Below, one piece after another: positions 1 to 5,722 of a stretch of 5,722 bases of DNA (position 1 is the stretch's first letter; every line of letters starts with the position of its first letter). Source of the stretch: Chloroflexota bacterium (lineage in GTDB: Bacteria > Chloroflexota > Anaerolineae > Promineifilales > Promineifilaceae); NCBI GenBank assembly GCA_008501785.1, contig QQUD01000584.1, forward strand, positions 1 through 5,722. Direction: 5' to 3'. A program made the translations under genes and the position numbers. The notes under the pieces are model-generated. The model did no database searches, had not been told where the DNA came from, and saw only the letters and a program-made list of their open reading frames with translations.

Positions 1-776
1 CCTTTCAAAATGAGCATGAGACCGGTCGCAGATTGCAGCTTTGCTTGGAATTCGATAATTTGATTAGCGATTTTTGTTTTGCCATTTGCCAGTGCGTCTC
101 GTCGTGCTTTCTCTTGCCGCACCATCCAGCCCATTAGTTCATCGAGCAGAACAGTTTTGGGGATGGGGTGGAAAACGGCCGTTTCTCCCTCCGCAATCTG
201 TGCATACAGCTTGTCAATATGACGGGCAATCACACGTGGTTTGTGTGGTTCAGGCGGGCGCTGTTGATGGAGATGTTGGAAGAAAACGGCCGTTTCTGCC
301 ACCGTCGCTCCGACTTCATCCGCTAACCGTTTTTCGACAAGTGCTGGGTCAGCGCCAAAATGGTGAATGGAACGGCCGTAATCCGCCAAAACCTCCAAAT
401 GTTGCAGCAAAGGGTCTAAAAATCCATCTTCAGGCAGCGCCGCCACCCCAAAATAGATTGGCGTCCATCCACCTAGATTACGTGTTAAAAAGCTCGGGTC
501 TTTGAAAAACTCGATAGGCACCAGCCGATCTGTAAATGTGCTTATCAGGTGGTTTTCGGGATGGTCAATCGCTAATAAATTTTCAATCGTTGGCTGCTGA
601 TATAGTTTGTTAATCCAGACTGTTTCTGCTGCCAGAGTTGGACGCTGTCCTAAAATTTGTATCTTTTCACCCCGTGGCACTGGTAGCGGCGGCTTTAAAA
701 ATGACACAATTTCTGGGCGATTTAAAGGGATACCAATCACAGCATAATGATTATTCTGTGTAAAATCTGTATTCAT
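1..776 (-). CDS. Unrecognised protein, 3' end outside window
   Basis: This frame is open from an ATG at 774-776 to the left edge: 258 codons without a stop, so the C-terminus is missing. I do not recognise the family. The protein starts MNTDFTQNNHYAVIGIPLNR and shows no signal peptide or obvious membrane segment, so it is probably cytoplasmic. The visible part mixes hydrophobic and charged stretches. The last 40 or so residues (RQEKARRDALANGKTK onward) are strongly charged and look helical. Two purine-rich ribosome-binding sites precede the start: GAGGAGG (790-796), 13 nt away, and AGGAG (779-783), only 2 nt away. It lies downstream of, and on the same strand as, the GH13 gene, separated by 213 nt of repeats, so co-transcription is possible but not shown. 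Two AACGGCCGTT palindromes inside it are both read as Thr-Ala-Val, and a shorter ACGGCCGT (372-379) is read as Tyr-Gly-Arg-Ser. The continuous frame makes it likely to be a real gene; its function is unknown. Confidence 0.75.
   Translation of the reverse strand, partial: MNTDFTQNNHYAVIGIPLNRPEIVSFLKPPLPVPRGEKIQILGQRPTLAAETVWINKLYQQPTIENLLAIDHPENHLISTFTDRLVPIEFFKDPSFLTRNLGGWTPIYFGVAALPEDGFLDPLLQHLEVLADYGRSIHHFGADPALVEKRLADEVGATVAETAVFFQHLHQQRPPEPHKPRVIARHIDKLYAQIAEGETAVFHPIPKTVLLDELMGWMVRQEKARRDALANGKTKIANQIIEFQAKLQSATGLMLILK
174..183. repeat. Iterated palindrome AACGGCCGTT, copy 1
   Basis: Perfect 10-bp palindrome inside the unrecognised gene, read there as Thr-Ala-Val within GETAVF. The flanks extend the symmetry to AAACGGCCGTTT. 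Confidence 0.85.
285..294. repeat. Iterated palindrome AACGGCCGTT, copy 2
   Basis: Perfect copy 111 nt from copy 1, in the same codon phase (Thr-Ala-Val within AETAVF) and with the same extended flanks GAAAACGGCCGTTTC. An imperfect relative, AACGGCCGTA, lies at 371-380. Confidence 0.85.
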
Positions 777-989: not shown

Positions 990-2621
990 TTATTCGCTAT
1001 ATTCCAAAAACTTCTTGCCGATTACATAAAGGTCAAACAACAGCCCTTCATTTGGGCGTAAATGTAACACACCCTCTCTAACAGGTTCTGGTTTATCGCC
1101 AACTGTTGACAAAAGCAATCGATCTACATCAACAGGTAACTCCCATGATTGTGGCTGGTTGCTAAAGTTGAGTGCAATCAAAAATTGCTGTTTGCCATCC
1201 GTTCGCATGTAAGTGAATAAATCGTCGGGTGAATCAATCGATTGATATGCTCCAGAATGCAAAGCGGGGTTGTCCTGACGCAGTTTCAGCAGCTTCCGTG
1301 TCATTGTGAGTATGGAAGTTGGGTCAGATTGTTGGGTGGTGGTGTTAACGGCCGTTCTATTCTCGCCTACCGGCAGCCACGGCATCACATCTGGCTCACA
1401 AAATCCCGCATTTTCGCTGCCATCCCACTGCATCGGTGTTCTTTCTGGGTCTCTGCCCAGACCAATACCTGGGACAAAAATTTCCCAGGGGTCTTGCACA
1501 CGATCTGGCGGAATAATGCCATCCATCATCCCAGTTTCATCCCCGTAATACACCGTTGGCGTACCGCGCAGTGTGAGCATCATCATCATGGCTAAACGCG
1601 CTTGTGCTGTGCCGACCCGGCTGGCAACGCGGTGCTGATCATGATTGCCCAATACCCAATTTGGCCACGCACCTACGGGCAGCACCCGCTCGTATTCTTC
1701 GACCAGCGCCCGCACGGTTGTTGGATTCCAATCTGCAAAGATGAGGCGGAAGTTGAAGGGGAGGTGGAACTCGGAACGGCCGTTTTCAATATCCCCATAA
1801 TGCTTCACTAACTGTGGAAATGGCAAATTGATCTCACCAATCAGCACCTTATCTTCAAACTCATCTGCCACCTCCCGCAGCCACCGATTAAAGAGATGAA
1901 TATCAGGAATATTTTTGGTATGTAATTCAATCACTTGTTTTGATGGGTCCATCCCTGGCTGCCAATTGGGATTGGGCGGATTATCTCGAAATTGGGTATC
2001 TTTCATTACCCGATACGACACATCCACCCGGAACCCATCCACACCGCGATTAAACCAAAAGCGCAGCACATCCAGCATTGCCGTCTTGACTTCAGGATTG
2101 CGCCAATTCAAATCAGGTTGCTCTTTCAAAAAAGAATGCAAATAAAATTGACCCGTCGCTTCATCCCACTCCCAGGCTGACTTGCCATCAAATCGGCTGA
2201 GCCAGTTGTTTGGTGGTCCTCCATCTGCTGCTGAATCGCGCCAAATATACCAGTCTCGCTTGGCGTTATTTTTTGAACTGCGCGATTCAAGAAACCATTC
2301 ATGCTGATCTGATGTATGATTGGGTACAAAATCAAGAATGATCTTAAGATCATGGTCATGCACGTCCGAAATCAGCGCATCCATATCTTTCAATGTGCCA
2401 AACATCGGATGAATTTCTAAATAATCGCTCACATCGTATCCAAAATCAGCCATAGGCGAAGGATAAATTGGAGAAATCCAGATTGAGTGAACCCCCAACC
2501 ATTTCAAATAAGGCAATCTTTGTTTAATGCCTTGTAAATCACCAATGCCATCCCCATTGCTATCTTGAAAGCTGCGAGGATAAATTTGATAAACGACCCC
2601 AATTTGCCACCAATTCTTCAT
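990..2621 (-). CDS. GH13 alpha-glucosidase / oligo-1,6-glucosidase
   Basis: Complete 543-residue glycoside hydrolase family 13 enzyme that hydrolyses short alpha-glucosides such as maltose, isomaltose or related oligosaccharides by a retaining mechanism. Visible landmarks, in order, are the Ca-site loop DSNGDGIGD (20-28), region I DFVPNH (97-102), GFRVD with nucleophile Asp200, IGE with acid/base Glu263, and GNHD with transition-state Asp328. The C-terminal beta domain begins near residue 440. The protein starts directly with the barrel (MKNWWQIGVVYQIYPRSF) and has no signal peptide, so it acts in the cytoplasm on imported sugar. The ATG at 2619-2621 is supported by AAGGAGT (2626-2632), 4 nt away. 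The gene diverges from the LacI regulator with a shared operator between them. Length is usual for the oligo-1,6-glucosidase group. GH13 subfamily and exact substrate cannot be fixed by eye; the AglA role is inferred from context. Two AACGGCCGTT palindromes fall in it, encoding NGR near residue 281 and TAV at 423-425. Confidence 0.95.
   Translation of the reverse strand: MKNWWQIGVVYQIYPRSFQDSNGDGIGDLQGIKQRLPYLKWLGVHSIWISPIYPSPMADFGYDVSDYLEIHPMFGTLKDMDALISDVHDHDLKIILDFVPNHTSDQHEWFLESRSSKNNAKRDWYIWRDSAADGGPPNNWLSRFDGKSAWEWDEATGQFYLHSFLKEQPDLNWRNPEVKTAMLDVLRFWFNRGVDGFRVDVSYRVMKDTQFRDNPPNPNWQPGMDPSKQVIELHTKNIPDIHLFNRWLREVADEFEDKVLIGEINLPFPQLVKHYGDIENGRSEFHLPFNFRLIFADWNPTTVRALVEEYERVLPVGAWPNWVLGNHDQHRVASRVGTAQARLAMMMMLTLRGTPTVYYGDETGMMDGIIPPDRVQDPWEIFVPGIGLGRDPERTPMQWDGSENAGFCEPDVMPWLPVGENRTAVNTTTQQSDPTSILTMTRKLLKLRQDNPALHSGAYQSIDSPDDLFTYMRTDGKQQFLIALNFSNQPQSWELPVDVDRLLLSTVGDKPEPVREGVLHLRPNEGLLFDLYVIGKKFLEYSE
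1347..1356. repeat. Iterated palindrome AACGGCCGTT, copy 3
   Basis: Perfect copy in the GH13 gene, read as Thr423-Ala-Val425 within a polar, probably surface-exposed stretch (NRTAVNTTTQQS). Confidence 0.85.
1775..1784. repeat. Iterated palindrome AACGGCCGTT, copy 4
   Basis: Perfect copy in the GH13 gene, read in another codon phase as Asn280-Gly-Arg282, just before the conserved HLPFNF segment. Confidence 0.85.
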
Positions 2622-2667: not shown

Positions 2668-2692
2668 ATACACAAATTGGAACCGGTTCCAA
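2665..2692 (-). promoter_or_regulatory. Divergent promoter for the GH13 gene
   Basis: On the minus strand, TATACT (2665-2670) makes a good -10, and TTGGAA (2687-2692) a moderate -35 at 16-nt spacing. The -35 lies inside the operator and the -10 overlaps the opposing -10 by 3 bp. Transcription would start near 2658, giving a leader of about 37 nt to the GH13 ATG. Confidence 0.55.
2677..2692. promoter_or_regulatory. LacI-family operator TTGGAACCGGTTCCAA
   Basis: A perfect 16-bp palindrome with a central CCGG, matching the typical LacI/GalR-family operator layout (AACCGGTT core centred on CG). It covers the GH13 -35 and the expected start region of the lacI transcript, so one site can control both divergent genes. 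The neighbouring LacI protein is the obvious ligand. Confidence 0.85.
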
Positions 2693-2770: not shown

Positions 2771-3784
2771 ATGGCAAATATAACCATCAGAGATGTTGCC
2801 AAAAAAGCAGGCGTAGGTGTCGGAACAGTATCACGTGTATTAAATCAAAGTCCTTCTGTCAGTGAATCAACGCGTGAGAAAGTTCTATCAGCCATTGCAG
2901 AACTCAAATACACACCAAGCCCAATTGCTCGCCGTTTATCGTTAGGTAAAACGATGACGATTGGCGTCATTACGCCCTTTTTTACCCGCAGCTCATATGT
3001 TGAACGTTTACGAGGCGTAGAATCAGTTTTGTCTCAAAGCGAGTACGACTTCATTATTTATAATGTCGAGACGGTCGAACGCCGGGATAAATATTTCCGT
3101 GAAATACCGCGACGAGAGCGCATTGATGGGATGATGATCATGTCCCTCCCCCCCACAAATGAAGACGCCCAACGTTTTGCAGATGCGCAAGTTCCCACGA
3201 TTTTAGTCGATGCTTCACATCCCCATATCAGCCGCGTCATGATTGATGATGTGGATGGCGGTTATAAAGCAACAATGCATCTAATTGAGCTAGGTCATCA
3301 AAAAATTAGCTACCTCAGCGATTACATGAAAAACTGTCCGTTTCATTTCACTCCTGTGCAAGATCGCTATCAGGGCTATCGGAATGCGTTAGCAGATGCA
3401 GGAATTGAATATAACCCTGCGTATTACAAACAAAGTGAATTAAGTGAGCAAGAAGCACAGCGCATGGCTTTAGAAGTTCTATCTTTACCTGATCCACCAA
3501 CGGCAATTTTTGCATATAGCGACACACAGGCGTTTGGCGTGCTGCGGGCTGCGCAAGAGTTGGGCATTGAAGTGCCTGAGCAGTTGTCAATAATCGGATA
3601 CGACGATATTGAGCTGGCGGAATATTTGAATTTAACCACGATACGTCAAAATTTGTTTCTATCAGGTGTCAAAGGGGCTGAGTTGATGTTAACGGCCGTT
3701 TCCGGCCACAACACACCACCACAACAAGTCATATTACCGACCGAATTGGTACAAAGACGCACAACCGCCCCACCTGTTCAATAA
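2771..3784 (+). CDS. LacI-family transcriptional regulator
   Basis: Complete 337-residue LacI/GalR-type regulator, the usual length. The N-terminal helix-turn-helix spans residues 5-25 (TIRDVAKKAGVGVGTVSRVL) and starts right after the initiator, as is standard. The hinge helix with ARRLSLG lies at about 50-60. The periplasmic-binding-protein-like sensor domain fills roughly 62-330 and includes family landmarks DGMMIM (119-124), DDVDGGY (159-165), IFAYSD (246-251), IIGYDDI (274-280) and LTTIRQN (288-294). It most likely represses the divergent glucosidase gene and itself until an alpha-glucoside or derivative binds. The perfect palindrome 79 bp before its start is the probable operator. It precedes the binding-protein gene by 171 nt on the same strand, matching AglR-type regulators of alpha-glucoside loci; the ligand is inferred from context only. 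Confidence 0.95.
   Translation: MANITIRDVAKKAGVGVGTVSRVLNQSPSVSESTREKVLSAIAELKYTPSPIARRLSLGKTMTIGVITPFFTRSSYVERLRGVESVLSQSEYDFIIYNVETVERRDKYFREIPRRERIDGMMIMSLPPTNEDAQRFADAQVPTILVDASHPHISRVMIDDVDGGYKATMHLIELGHQKISYLSDYMKNCPFHFTPVQDRYQGYRNALADAGIEYNPAYYKQSELSEQEAQRMALEVLSLPDPPTAIFAYSDTQAFGVLRAAQELGIEVPEQLSIIGYDDIELAEYLNLTTIRQNLFLSGVKGAELMLTAVSGHNTPPQQVILPTELVQRRTTAPPVQ
3691..3700. repeat. Iterated palindrome AACGGCCGTT, copy 5
   Basis: Perfect copy near the 3' end of the LacI gene, read as Thr308-Ala-Val310. A further partial match, ACGGCCGT, lies at 5041-5048 in the binding-protein gene. Confidence 0.85.
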
Positions 3785-3933: not shown

Positions 3934-3946
3934 TCCTTAAGGAGGA
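3934..3946 (+). promoter_or_regulatory. Ribosome-binding site of the binding-protein gene
   Basis: AAGGAGG (3939-3945) lies 10 nt before ATG 3956, strong but slightly distant. It overlaps the palindrome TCCTTAAGGA (3934-3943). CTTA plus TCC (3929-3936) can also pair with GGATAAG (3944-3950), leaving part of the site in the loop, so accessibility may depend on RNA folding. Confidence 0.65.
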
Positions 3947-3955
3947 TAAGAAAAC

Positions 3956-5722
3956 ATGCATACTCGAAAATTATGGAGTTTACTTGCGCTCTTCCTCGCC
4001 CTTTCGCTCATTTTAGTAGCGTGTGGTGGCGGCGCAGAAGAAGAACCAGCCGAACCGGCTGATACCCCAGCCGAACCGGCTGATGAGCCAGCAGATGAGC
4101 CAGCAGAAGAAACCGATGCTGGCACAGAAGAAATGGCTGAAGTTAGCTTTGATATGGCACCAGGCGGGTTCCTGGAACGTGCGGTTGCCGGTGAATTTAC
4201 TGGAACAACCGTAACTGTCGATGGTGCTTTTGAAGGCAATGATGTCGATGGTGTGAAGTTTAACGAATCGATGAAAGCATTTGTCGAAGCCACGGGCATC
4301 ACTGTCAACTACGTTGGCAGTAAAGAGTTCGAAGGCTCGATTGCCATTCGTGTTGGTGCAGGCGATGCACCAGACATCGTGGACTTCCCACAGCCCGGCC
4401 TGTTCGCCAACTTCGTGCGCAGTGGCGATGTTAAACCGGTAGATTTCATCTCAGATGAATGGTTGTCACAGCAATACAACCCCGGTTGGCGTGAATTTAA
4501 CACGGTTGACGGTGTTGAATCTGGTGTGATGCATCGCTACTCCGGCAAGAGCCTGGTGTGGTATCCAAAAGCCGCCTGGGACGCAGCCGGCTACGAGATT
4601 CCTGAAACCTGGGATGAACTGGTTGCTTTGACACAGACGATTGCTGATGACGGTGACACCGCCTGGTGTATCGGAATCGAATCCGGCGCAGCTACCGGCT
4701 GGGTAGCTACAGACTGGACAGAAGACATGATGCTGCGCACCACCTCCCTGGAGAACTACGATGCCTGGGTGGCTGGTGAACTGCCGTTTGATTCACCCGA
4801 AGTGAAGAACGCCATCGAGACCTGGAGTGAGGTCTGGTTCAATGACGATTATGTGAATGGTGGCCGTTCCTCCATCGTATCCACCTTCTTTGGTGATGCG
4901 CCAGGAGCGATGTTCCAAGACCCACCACAATGTTGGCTGCATCGTCAGGCCAACTTCATCACCAGCTTCTTCCCTGAAGGGACAGAATATGGTGTAGATT
5001 ATGACTTCTTCTACCTGCCGCCAGTGGATGATGCTTACGGACGGCCGTTCCTGGTCGCCGGTGACCTGATTGCCATGTTCAATGATCGACCAGAAGTGCG
5101 CGCGTTGATGGAATACTTCACCACGCCACAGTCGACCAGCGGGTGGTTAGAAGGTGGTGGTGCTATTTCTGCTCATCAAACAGCCACACAAGACATGTAT
5201 GGTTCCGATTTGGACTACGGTGTTTCTCAACTGGTAGCCAATGCTACCAGCTTCCGTTTTGACGGCTCAGACCTGATGCCCGGCGAAGTCGGCGCAGGCT
5301 CCTTCTGGGAACAGGTTTCCAGTTATGTTGCTGGTTCCATTGACCTGGATACAGCTATGGCTGAAATTGATGCTTCCTGGCCTGCTGGTACTGCTGGTGT
5401 CGAAAGCGTCACCGAAGAACCGGCAATGTCAGATGCTGGTTTTGCCGTTATGCCTGGTGGTGCTTTGGAAGAAGCCTTAACCGGTGCATATGAAGGCACA
5501 ACCGTAACCGTTGATGGTGCTTTTGAAGGCAATGATGTCGATGGTGTGAAGTTTAACGAATCAGTGAAAGCCTTTGTTGAGGCCACAGGCATCAATGTCA
5601 ACTACGTTGGCAGTAAAGAGTTCGAAGGCTCGATTGCCATTCGTGTTGGTGCAGGCGATGCACCAGACATCGTGGACTTCCCACAGCCCGGCCTGTTCGC
5701 CAACTTCGTGCGCAGTGGCGAT
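3956..5722 (+). CDS. AglE-like sugar-binding lipoprotein, tandem domains, partial
   Basis: The frame is open for 589 codons to the right edge. Residues 1-22 form a lipoprotein signal peptide ending in lipobox LVAC, with Cys23 as the lipidated residue, followed by a Glu/Pro/Ala/Asp tether (about 27-62). Domain 1 (about 83-476) is an ABC-transporter solute-binding protein of the alpha-glucoside (AglE) type. It shows GDAPDIVDFPQPG (136-148), WCIGIESGAATGW (237-249) and CWLHRQ (326-331); Cys238 and Cys326 could form a disulfide. A linker of about 35 residues follows, then a second domain starts at about 514, offset by exactly 431 residues, and runs out of the window. Both domains are preceded by a similar PGG-x-LE-x-A segment. 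It would capture alpha-glucosides outside the membrane for a permease, expected downstream, to feed the GH13 enzyme. Typical relatives have one domain of about 400-450 residues, so this fusion is unusual. The AglE assignment comes from recalled family motifs. Confidence 0.9.
   Translation, partial: MHTRKLWSLLALFLALSLILVACGGGAEEEPAEPADTPAEPADEPADEPAEETDAGTEEMAEVSFDMAPGGFLERAVAGEFTGTTVTVDGAFEGNDVDGVKFNESMKAFVEATGITVNYVGSKEFEGSIAIRVGAGDAPDIVDFPQPGLFANFVRSGDVKPVDFISDEWLSQQYNPGWREFNTVDGVESGVMHRYSGKSLVWYPKAAWDAAGYEIPETWDELVALTQTIADDGDTAWCIGIESGAATGWVATDWTEDMMLRTTSLENYDAWVAGELPFDSPEVKNAIETWSEVWFNDDYVNGGRSSIVSTFFGDAPGAMFQDPPQCWLHRQANFITSFFPEGTEYGVDYDFFYLPPVDDAYGRPFLVAGDLIAMFNDRPEVRALMEYFTTPQSTSGWLEGGGAISAHQTATQDMYGSDLDYGVSQLVANATSFRFDGSDLMPGEVGAGSFWEQVSSYVAGSIDLDTAMAEIDASWPAGTAGVESVTEEPAMSDAGFAVMPGGALEEALTGAYEGTTVTVDGAFEGNDVDGVKFNESVKAFVEATGINVNYVGSKEFEGSIAIRVGAGDAPDIVDFPQPGLFANFVRSGD
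4046..4105 (+). repeat. Low-complexity tether coding repeats
   Basis: An 18-mer, CCAGCCGAACCGGCTGAT, occurs at 4046-4063 and 4067-4084, a 21-nt (7-codon) offset. GATGAGCCAGCA occurs twice back to back (4082-4093, 4094-4105). They encode the Pro-Ala-Glu/Asp-rich spacer between the lipid anchor and the first binding domain, and probably vary in length between strains. Confidence 0.75.
4199..4429 (+). repeat. Domain repeat, first copy
   Basis: This segment is repeated in frame at 5492-5722 (offset 1293 nt). The 5' part (4199-4302) differs at about one base in ten, mostly at silent positions. From 4303 to 4429 the two copies are identical over 127 nt. It encodes the N-terminal lobe of the binding domain. 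Confidence 0.95.
5492..5722 (+). repeat. Domain repeat, second copy (runs off window)
   Basis: Second copy of 4199-4429. The identical block begins at 5596 and continues to the last base, so its true right end is unknown. Confidence 0.95.

Follow-up and report, generated by a model that had tools for sequence, protein, structure and literature searches.

The stretch of DNA examined here, the window, is a contig of 5,722 nucleotides (QQUD01000584.1) from the assembly GCA_008501785.1 of a Chloroflexota bacterium. At its downstream end lies the beginning of a gene for a predicted lipoprotein, in which a sugar-receptor domain of the solute-binding family SBP_bac_1 is followed in the same frame by the start of a second copy. 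A first-pass annotation, made from the sequence alone, had noticed these tandem domains, and the analysis bears it out: positions 3956-5722 are open, with one signal peptide and lipobox and no second signal. The gene comprises the following features.

3939..3945, forward strand: ribosome-binding site AAGGAGG, read in the sequence
3956..5722, forward strand: open reading frame with ATG start, 589 codons without a stop, running off the window end
3956..4021, forward strand: lipoprotein signal peptide, residues 1-22, from the translation, with a hydrophobic stretch ahead of LVAC
4022..4024, forward strand: lipobox cysteine C23, predicted lipid anchor, by reading (LILVAC, then GGG)
4025..4150, forward strand: acidic stem rich in Pro, Glu and Ala, residues 24-65, from the translation
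4151..5389, forward strand: first solute-binding domain, SBP_bac_1, residues 66-478, by family profile
5390..5443, forward strand: inter-domain linker of 18 residues (479-496), by domain profile
5444..5722, forward strand: start of the second solute-binding domain, residues 497-589 (93 residues), cut by the window end, by domain profile
4303..4429, forward strand: exact 127-base repeat, first copy
5596..5722, forward strand: exact 127-base repeat, second copy, ending at the last base of the window

The assignment of C23 follows the lipobox rule (residues 20-23 are LVAC), and this cysteine, also C23 in the best-matching relative P0001, is kept in at least 90% of 50 tandem relatives. The limits of the first domain lie close to the residues 83-476 proposed earlier; the Pfam model PF01547 (SBP_bac_1) matches residues 99-393 (E value 5.3e-24, 86.2 bits against a cut-off of 26). 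This match covers the first domain only, and the window contains just a fifth of the second, namely profile positions 6-92 of about 412. At the DNA level the two copies form a repeat of 257 bases (4173-4429 and 5466-5722) that is 91% identical, and its spacing of 1293 bases, or 431 codons, agrees with the earlier statement that the domain restarts after 431 residues. All 22 mismatches fall within the first 130 bases, the last at 4302/5595; up to 5595, both the linker and the opening part of domain 2 are distinct from the first copy, and the junction does lie outside the identical block, as had been claimed. We rejected three trivial origins of the tandem: chance, given that domain 2 reproduces about 85 residues of domain 1 and that 105 complete two-domain homologues occur among the matches listed; erroneous fusion of two neighbouring genes, given that the frame stays open through the linker and the second copy has no signal peptide of its own; and a low-complexity repeat, given that the repeated unit is a folded domain.

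Relatives of the window protein were collected in two protein searches, the first listing the best 120 of 5849 matches and the second, with the long frame of locus L012 as query, the best 120 of 239, which added 26 proteins. A domain profile, with a domain counted if it covered more than 300 positions, found two domains in 110 of these 146 listed proteins plus the window protein, one in 35 and three in 2. Among the matches listed there are 105 complete pairs, in which both domains are complete, compared with one complete domain and one cut after 93 residues in the window. The best match, P0001, has 912 residues and the same layout as the window protein. Typical complete relatives are lipoproteins of about 910 residues with two domains, mostly from Chloroflexota where the organism is named; a two-domain protein, P0070, carries the source label Halothiobacillaceae. 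Three domain copies are found in P0122, and three complete copies plus part of a fourth, at the contig end, in P0121, the protein of L012.

Among 24 species-representative loci, two copies were present in three, three copies and a cut fourth in one (L012), and the contig end lay inside the gene in three; the record titles name Chloroflexota groups in 23, and Spirochaetaceae for the single-domain L023. For 396 sampled genomes of the class, at most two candidates per genome were scored, which makes the counts lower bounds: a related gene (E value 1e-60 or less) occurs in at least 129 genomes and a full-length tandem, with matches covering both halves of the query, in at least 13. A sample of 400 genomes of the phylum, again with at most two candidates scored per genome, gave 22 genomes with matches at E values of 1e-150 or less, two of which (G001 and G080) have a tandem covering both query halves. 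The earlier description of such a fusion as uncommon therefore holds with respect to species and has to be qualified with respect to protein databases, where the family is large. Tandems lie on large contigs (L028, 3.99 Mb; L032, 5.35 Mb), and the source contigs of the two-domain protein P0002 reach 5.0 Mb. The one-domain gene L048 lies on a contig of 2.4 Mb, so not every one-domain gene is a collapsed repeat. Other long frames were noticed in passing: at G155:C776:4102-5403 a receptor domain lies inside an open frame of 1566 residues, and further frames lie at G311:C1:2111135 (779 residues) and G285:C5:897823 (812 residues).

The two domains of one protein are strikingly alike. Their identity has a median of 97.1% over the 105 complete pairs (range 53-100%), reaches 95.4-99.8% in the seven best complete relatives, P0001-P0007, and in 75 of the 105 is higher than that of the best match at the same position in another protein. 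In a tree of 256 domains, 72 of the 105 pairs are sisters, 67 of them with support of 0.9 or more. We compared the copies at the DNA level in 12 tandem loci. In L001, L004, L017 and L034 the domain cores are 99.1-100% identical with exact runs of 1075-1197 bases, and they differ at 0/171, 0/179, 0/181 and 1/174 fourfold sites, respectively. The closest first domain of another locus differs at 33-55% of such sites. Identity drops sharply at the upstream domain edge in these four loci; in L017, 11 of 12 fourfold sites differ within the first 20 codons against 0 of 182 at codons 60-420. L027 has an exact run of 479 bases within a core that is 94.5% identical, and core identity in the other seven loci ranges from 94.0% (L028) to 68.6% (L032).

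Is this likeness the trace of recent duplication, or is an older tandem being kept uniform? The linkers, 5 to 21 residues long across the 12 loci, bear on this question. Scored between proteins whose own two domains are over 92% identical, linkers match each other better than they match their own stem where the cores of the two proteins are 90-98.5% identical (106.8 versus 75.3, with about 12 for shuffles) and 85-90% identical (74.5 versus 59.7, again with about 12 for shuffles), and marginally at 80-85% (61.1 versus 57.6). The linker-linker score beats both own comparisons in 4/6, 7/13, 18/47 and 146/617 pairs, in order of falling core identity. Because close relatives share a linker although their cores differ, while the cores within each protein are near-identical, the data point to a tandem that predates the split of these relatives and to younger cores, that is, to concerted evolution by recombination. 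The cores would be kept alike, and the copy number changed, by gene conversion and unequal crossing-over between the copies. A positional signal at the domain edge (alignment columns 6-12, 814 pairs of 78 proteins) was weak, and absent for the comparison of C-terminal domains: identity was 33.5% between N-terminal domains, 21.9% between C-terminal domains and 24.4% between N- and C-terminal domains.

Several observations weigh against this interpretation. The linker means are reversed at core identities of 70-80% (45.9 versus 51.9 for the own stem), and linker inheritance is clear for close pairs only. Homogenisation is not universal: 33 of the 105 domain pairs are not sisters in the tree; in L032, 59 of 122 fourfold sites differ between the two domains, as many as between loci and proportionally more than between its first domain and that of the nearest other locus (64 of 156); those of L026, L037 and L039 differ at 37-41% of fourfold sites; and in P0062, P0073, P0074 and P0078 the identity within the protein is 53-55%, these being the 4 of 105 pairs below 60%. 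Only one complete copy is found in 17 of the 24 species-representative loci, and in the tree the first domain of the window is nearest to those of the single-domain proteins P0094 and P0103, from contigs of 3.7 and 1.7 kb, which may be real or collapsed repeats.

The alternative that fares best is that a one-domain gene was duplicated recently and independently many times, with no older tandem kept alike by conversion. The sister relationship of most domain pairs, the frequency of single-domain genes and the fading of linker inheritance in distant pairs all fit it, and independent duplication is possible for the distant members. A fresh duplication, however, should be uniform along its length, and divergence is much higher in the edges and linkers than in the cores, with a sharp border in L017; close relatives have a common linker, and the exact 479-base run of L027 sits inside a less identical core. 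We regard independent duplication as an unlikely account of the family as a whole, and concerted evolution of an older tandem as the preferred one.

The surroundings of the gene bear on what the receptor might serve.

2771..3784, forward strand: LacI-family regulator directly upstream of the receptor gene (Pfam LacI and Peripla_BP_3)
990..2621, reverse strand: GH13 alpha-amylase-family enzyme, divergent (Pfam Alpha-amylase, E value 4.9e-134)
2679..2690, no strand: GGAACCGGTTCC, a perfect palindrome in the space that separates GH13 from the divergent lacI

For the GH13 enzyme, none of the best 25 NCBIfam models listed reached its cut-off. The palindrome GGAACCGGTTCC is a possible LacI-family operator (one perfect match, with 0.22 expected when up to two mismatches are allowed). 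A frame of 258 residues, cut by the window start (3-776, reverse strand), has no Pfam match at an E value of 0.001. In the tandem relatives L001, L004, L012 and L017, two BPD_transp_1 permeases follow the receptor as separate genes, and domain 2 forms the end of the protein in complete relatives, with no fusion to a transmembrane domain. The AglE label, that of an alpha-glucoside receptor, comes from source annotations of relatives and from GH13 neighbours. A GH13 gene lies downstream in two of these four loci and in neither L012 nor L017, and the assignment of ligand and stoichiometry rests on resemblance; both points weigh against the reading of the protein favoured below.

A structure prediction for the first domain of the window itself, based on 18 close sequences, was of low quality (mean predicted local distance difference test score, pLDDT, 47.8) and was not used. 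The model used instead is that of the complete relative P0001, built with 50 tandem sequences including P0001. Its overall predicted template modelling score (pTM) is 0.51, with no fixed arrangement of the domains, and the region equivalent to the stem has a pLDDT below 50. The nearest folds include the oligosaccharide receptors BxlE, RafE and GacH; each domain shares fold and sequence family with sugar receptors of the AcbH, BxlE and RafE type, which have one domain each compared with two here. The two domains would fold separately with a flexible linker between them, and each would catch its ligand and dock to the same permease pair, giving two equal sites per anchor. The earlier suggestion that several sites on one lipid anchor could be advantageous is plausible as regards the gain in sites. 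Binding of one long or multivalent glucan across both sites, in place of two small ligands, appears rather improbable: the oligosaccharide receptors among the nearest folds and the suitability of identical domains for a repetitive ligand speak for it, and the variable linker length and the lack of a fixed domain arrangement in the model speak against it.

In the OpuA transporter of Lactococcus lactis, one substrate-binding domain is fused to each of two transporter subunits. The window type differs in carrying both domains on one free lipoprotein. The two resemble each other in the number of domains per transporter, since OpuA too is served by two substrate-binding domains (PMC11065425). GlnPQ of the same species has tandem substrate-binding domains that each fold and bind on their own and are joined by a linker of 14 residues (PMC8025302). 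It shares with the window protein the two domains per chain and the short linker (18 residues here); unlike the separate lipoprotein described here, its domains are fused to a transmembrane domain, bind amino acids and differ in ligand and affinity (PMC8025302), while those of the window's close relatives are near-identical and of the sugar class.

The first-pass annotation had invoked GlnPQ for the idea that the domains might offer different specificities to one permease. This is not supported for the window protein, for which we consider it improbable: the near-identical domains of P0001-P0007 argue against it and for more equal receptor sites per anchor. Across 50 tandem proteins, moreover, domain 1 has 62 invariant positions, and at every one of them domain 2 carries an unchanged residue in at least 90% of the proteins. 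As the window shows just 93 residues of its second domain, divergence could come later in the sequence. The idea stays open for a minority of diverged tandems: P0073 and P0074 have diverged domains inherited by position (91% identity between N-terminal and 80.5% between C-terminal domains, 54% within the protein), and P0138 joins a window-family domain to another SBP_bac_1 domain, the family profile fitting the second of the two only.

The end of the window is probably an assembly stop at the repeat, as its last 127 bases repeat exactly and 127 is the usual largest k-mer in SPAdes and MEGAHIT; the contig of the relative L018 is itself named k127. The long repeat made by recombination would be the probable cause, so that a single phenomenon probably underlies the contig end, the exact 127-base block and the homogenised repeat. 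One copy is complete and another incomplete in twenty proteins besides that of the window, and 18 of them begin or end within a copy, as expected if assemblies break at the repeat. The translated linker of the window, compared by eye and outside the scored pairs, resembles that of the complete tandem relatives P0001-P0005, so a chimeric or chance join is not likely. An assembly artefact, in which a gene with really one domain acquired a spurious second start from a loop in the assembly graph, is highly improbable: the contig does end exactly after the signature of a k=127 graph node, and 17 of the 24 representative relatives have one complete domain, but 22 of the 257 overlapping bases are not the same in the two copies, the linker resembles that of tandem relatives, and complete tandems lie on the contigs of 4.0 and 5.35 Mb and, for P0002, of up to 5.0 Mb.

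Taken jointly, then, we think it likely that the window covers the 5' two thirds of the gene, whose product would be a lipoprotein of roughly 910 residues with two, possibly more, domain copies; that this is the putative receptor of a CUT1-type ATP-binding cassette (ABC) importer taking up an alpha-glucoside or a similar sugar, controlled by the LacI regulator; and that recombination keeps the copies alike and created the repeat at which the contig ends.

The arrangement recurs in other receptors. In G001, the source genome of L001, a second tandem SBP_bac_1 lipoprotein of 857 residues is encoded at L055:1601-4174, with halves 83% identical; a permease-like frame adjoins it at 650-1579. All SBP_bac_1 genes were scanned in G001, G080 and G258, and the second tandem was absent from the latter two. 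It is a tandem lipoprotein like that of the window, but belongs to another SBP_bac_1 family (glucose/mannose-type) and is less homogenised: among its relatives (P0147 onwards), two domains occur in 90 of the best 120 of 390 matches, and the 88 complete pairs among the matches listed have a median identity of 86.9%, above both same-position matches in 33. The lipoproteins P0244-P0266, of about 770 residues, have precomputed domains of the ChvE/xylose receptor class and appear to join such a domain to a glucose-type SBP_bac_1 domain, so that a single anchor would serve two importer classes. In P0244, P0250, P0255 and P0262, the members listed by the profile search, and in P0241, it is the C-terminal half that is of the glucose type. 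In P0254 Pfam confirms the ChvE-type half and does not match the other, which is 76-87% identical to one-domain genes of eight genomes. With P0254 as query, no hybrid was found in 298 sampled genomes of the class (at most three candidates per genome); eight matched at E values of 1e-200 or less, in every case through the C-terminal part and in a frame of 435-533 residues. In P0142, P0145 and P0224, one or two SBP_bac_1 domains (two in P0224; P0145 also has SBP_bac_3) are fused to a protein kinase domain, and these proteins are possibly sugar-sensing receptor kinases. P0146, of 1226 residues, matches SBP_bac_1, beta-helix, SBP_bac_3 and oxidoreductase molybdopterin-binding domains.

A literature search, with most subscription journals outside its scope, found no paper on tandem SBP_bac_1 lipoproteins; the papers found study tandem receptor domains in fusions to the transporter. 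With near-identical domains on a free lipoprotein, the number of sites is separated from their specificity, which are mixed in GlnPQ, and natural forms with one, two or more domains can be compared. The finding also suggests that short-read assemblies are interrupted within such genes or may merge the copies, so that multi-domain receptors are probably under-counted. The interest of the finding lies in the recombination-driven homogenisation and in the recurrence of the tandem in Chloroflexota. As a tentative generalisation, to which we give somewhat less than an even chance, multi-receptor lipoproteins could be a general device of this phylum, comprising at least two homotypic families, with one to at least four copies varied by recombination, together with heterotypic fusions of ChvE/xylose-type and glucose-type receptors, which belong to different importer classes; receptor copy number may then be selected as a dose control for receptor sites.
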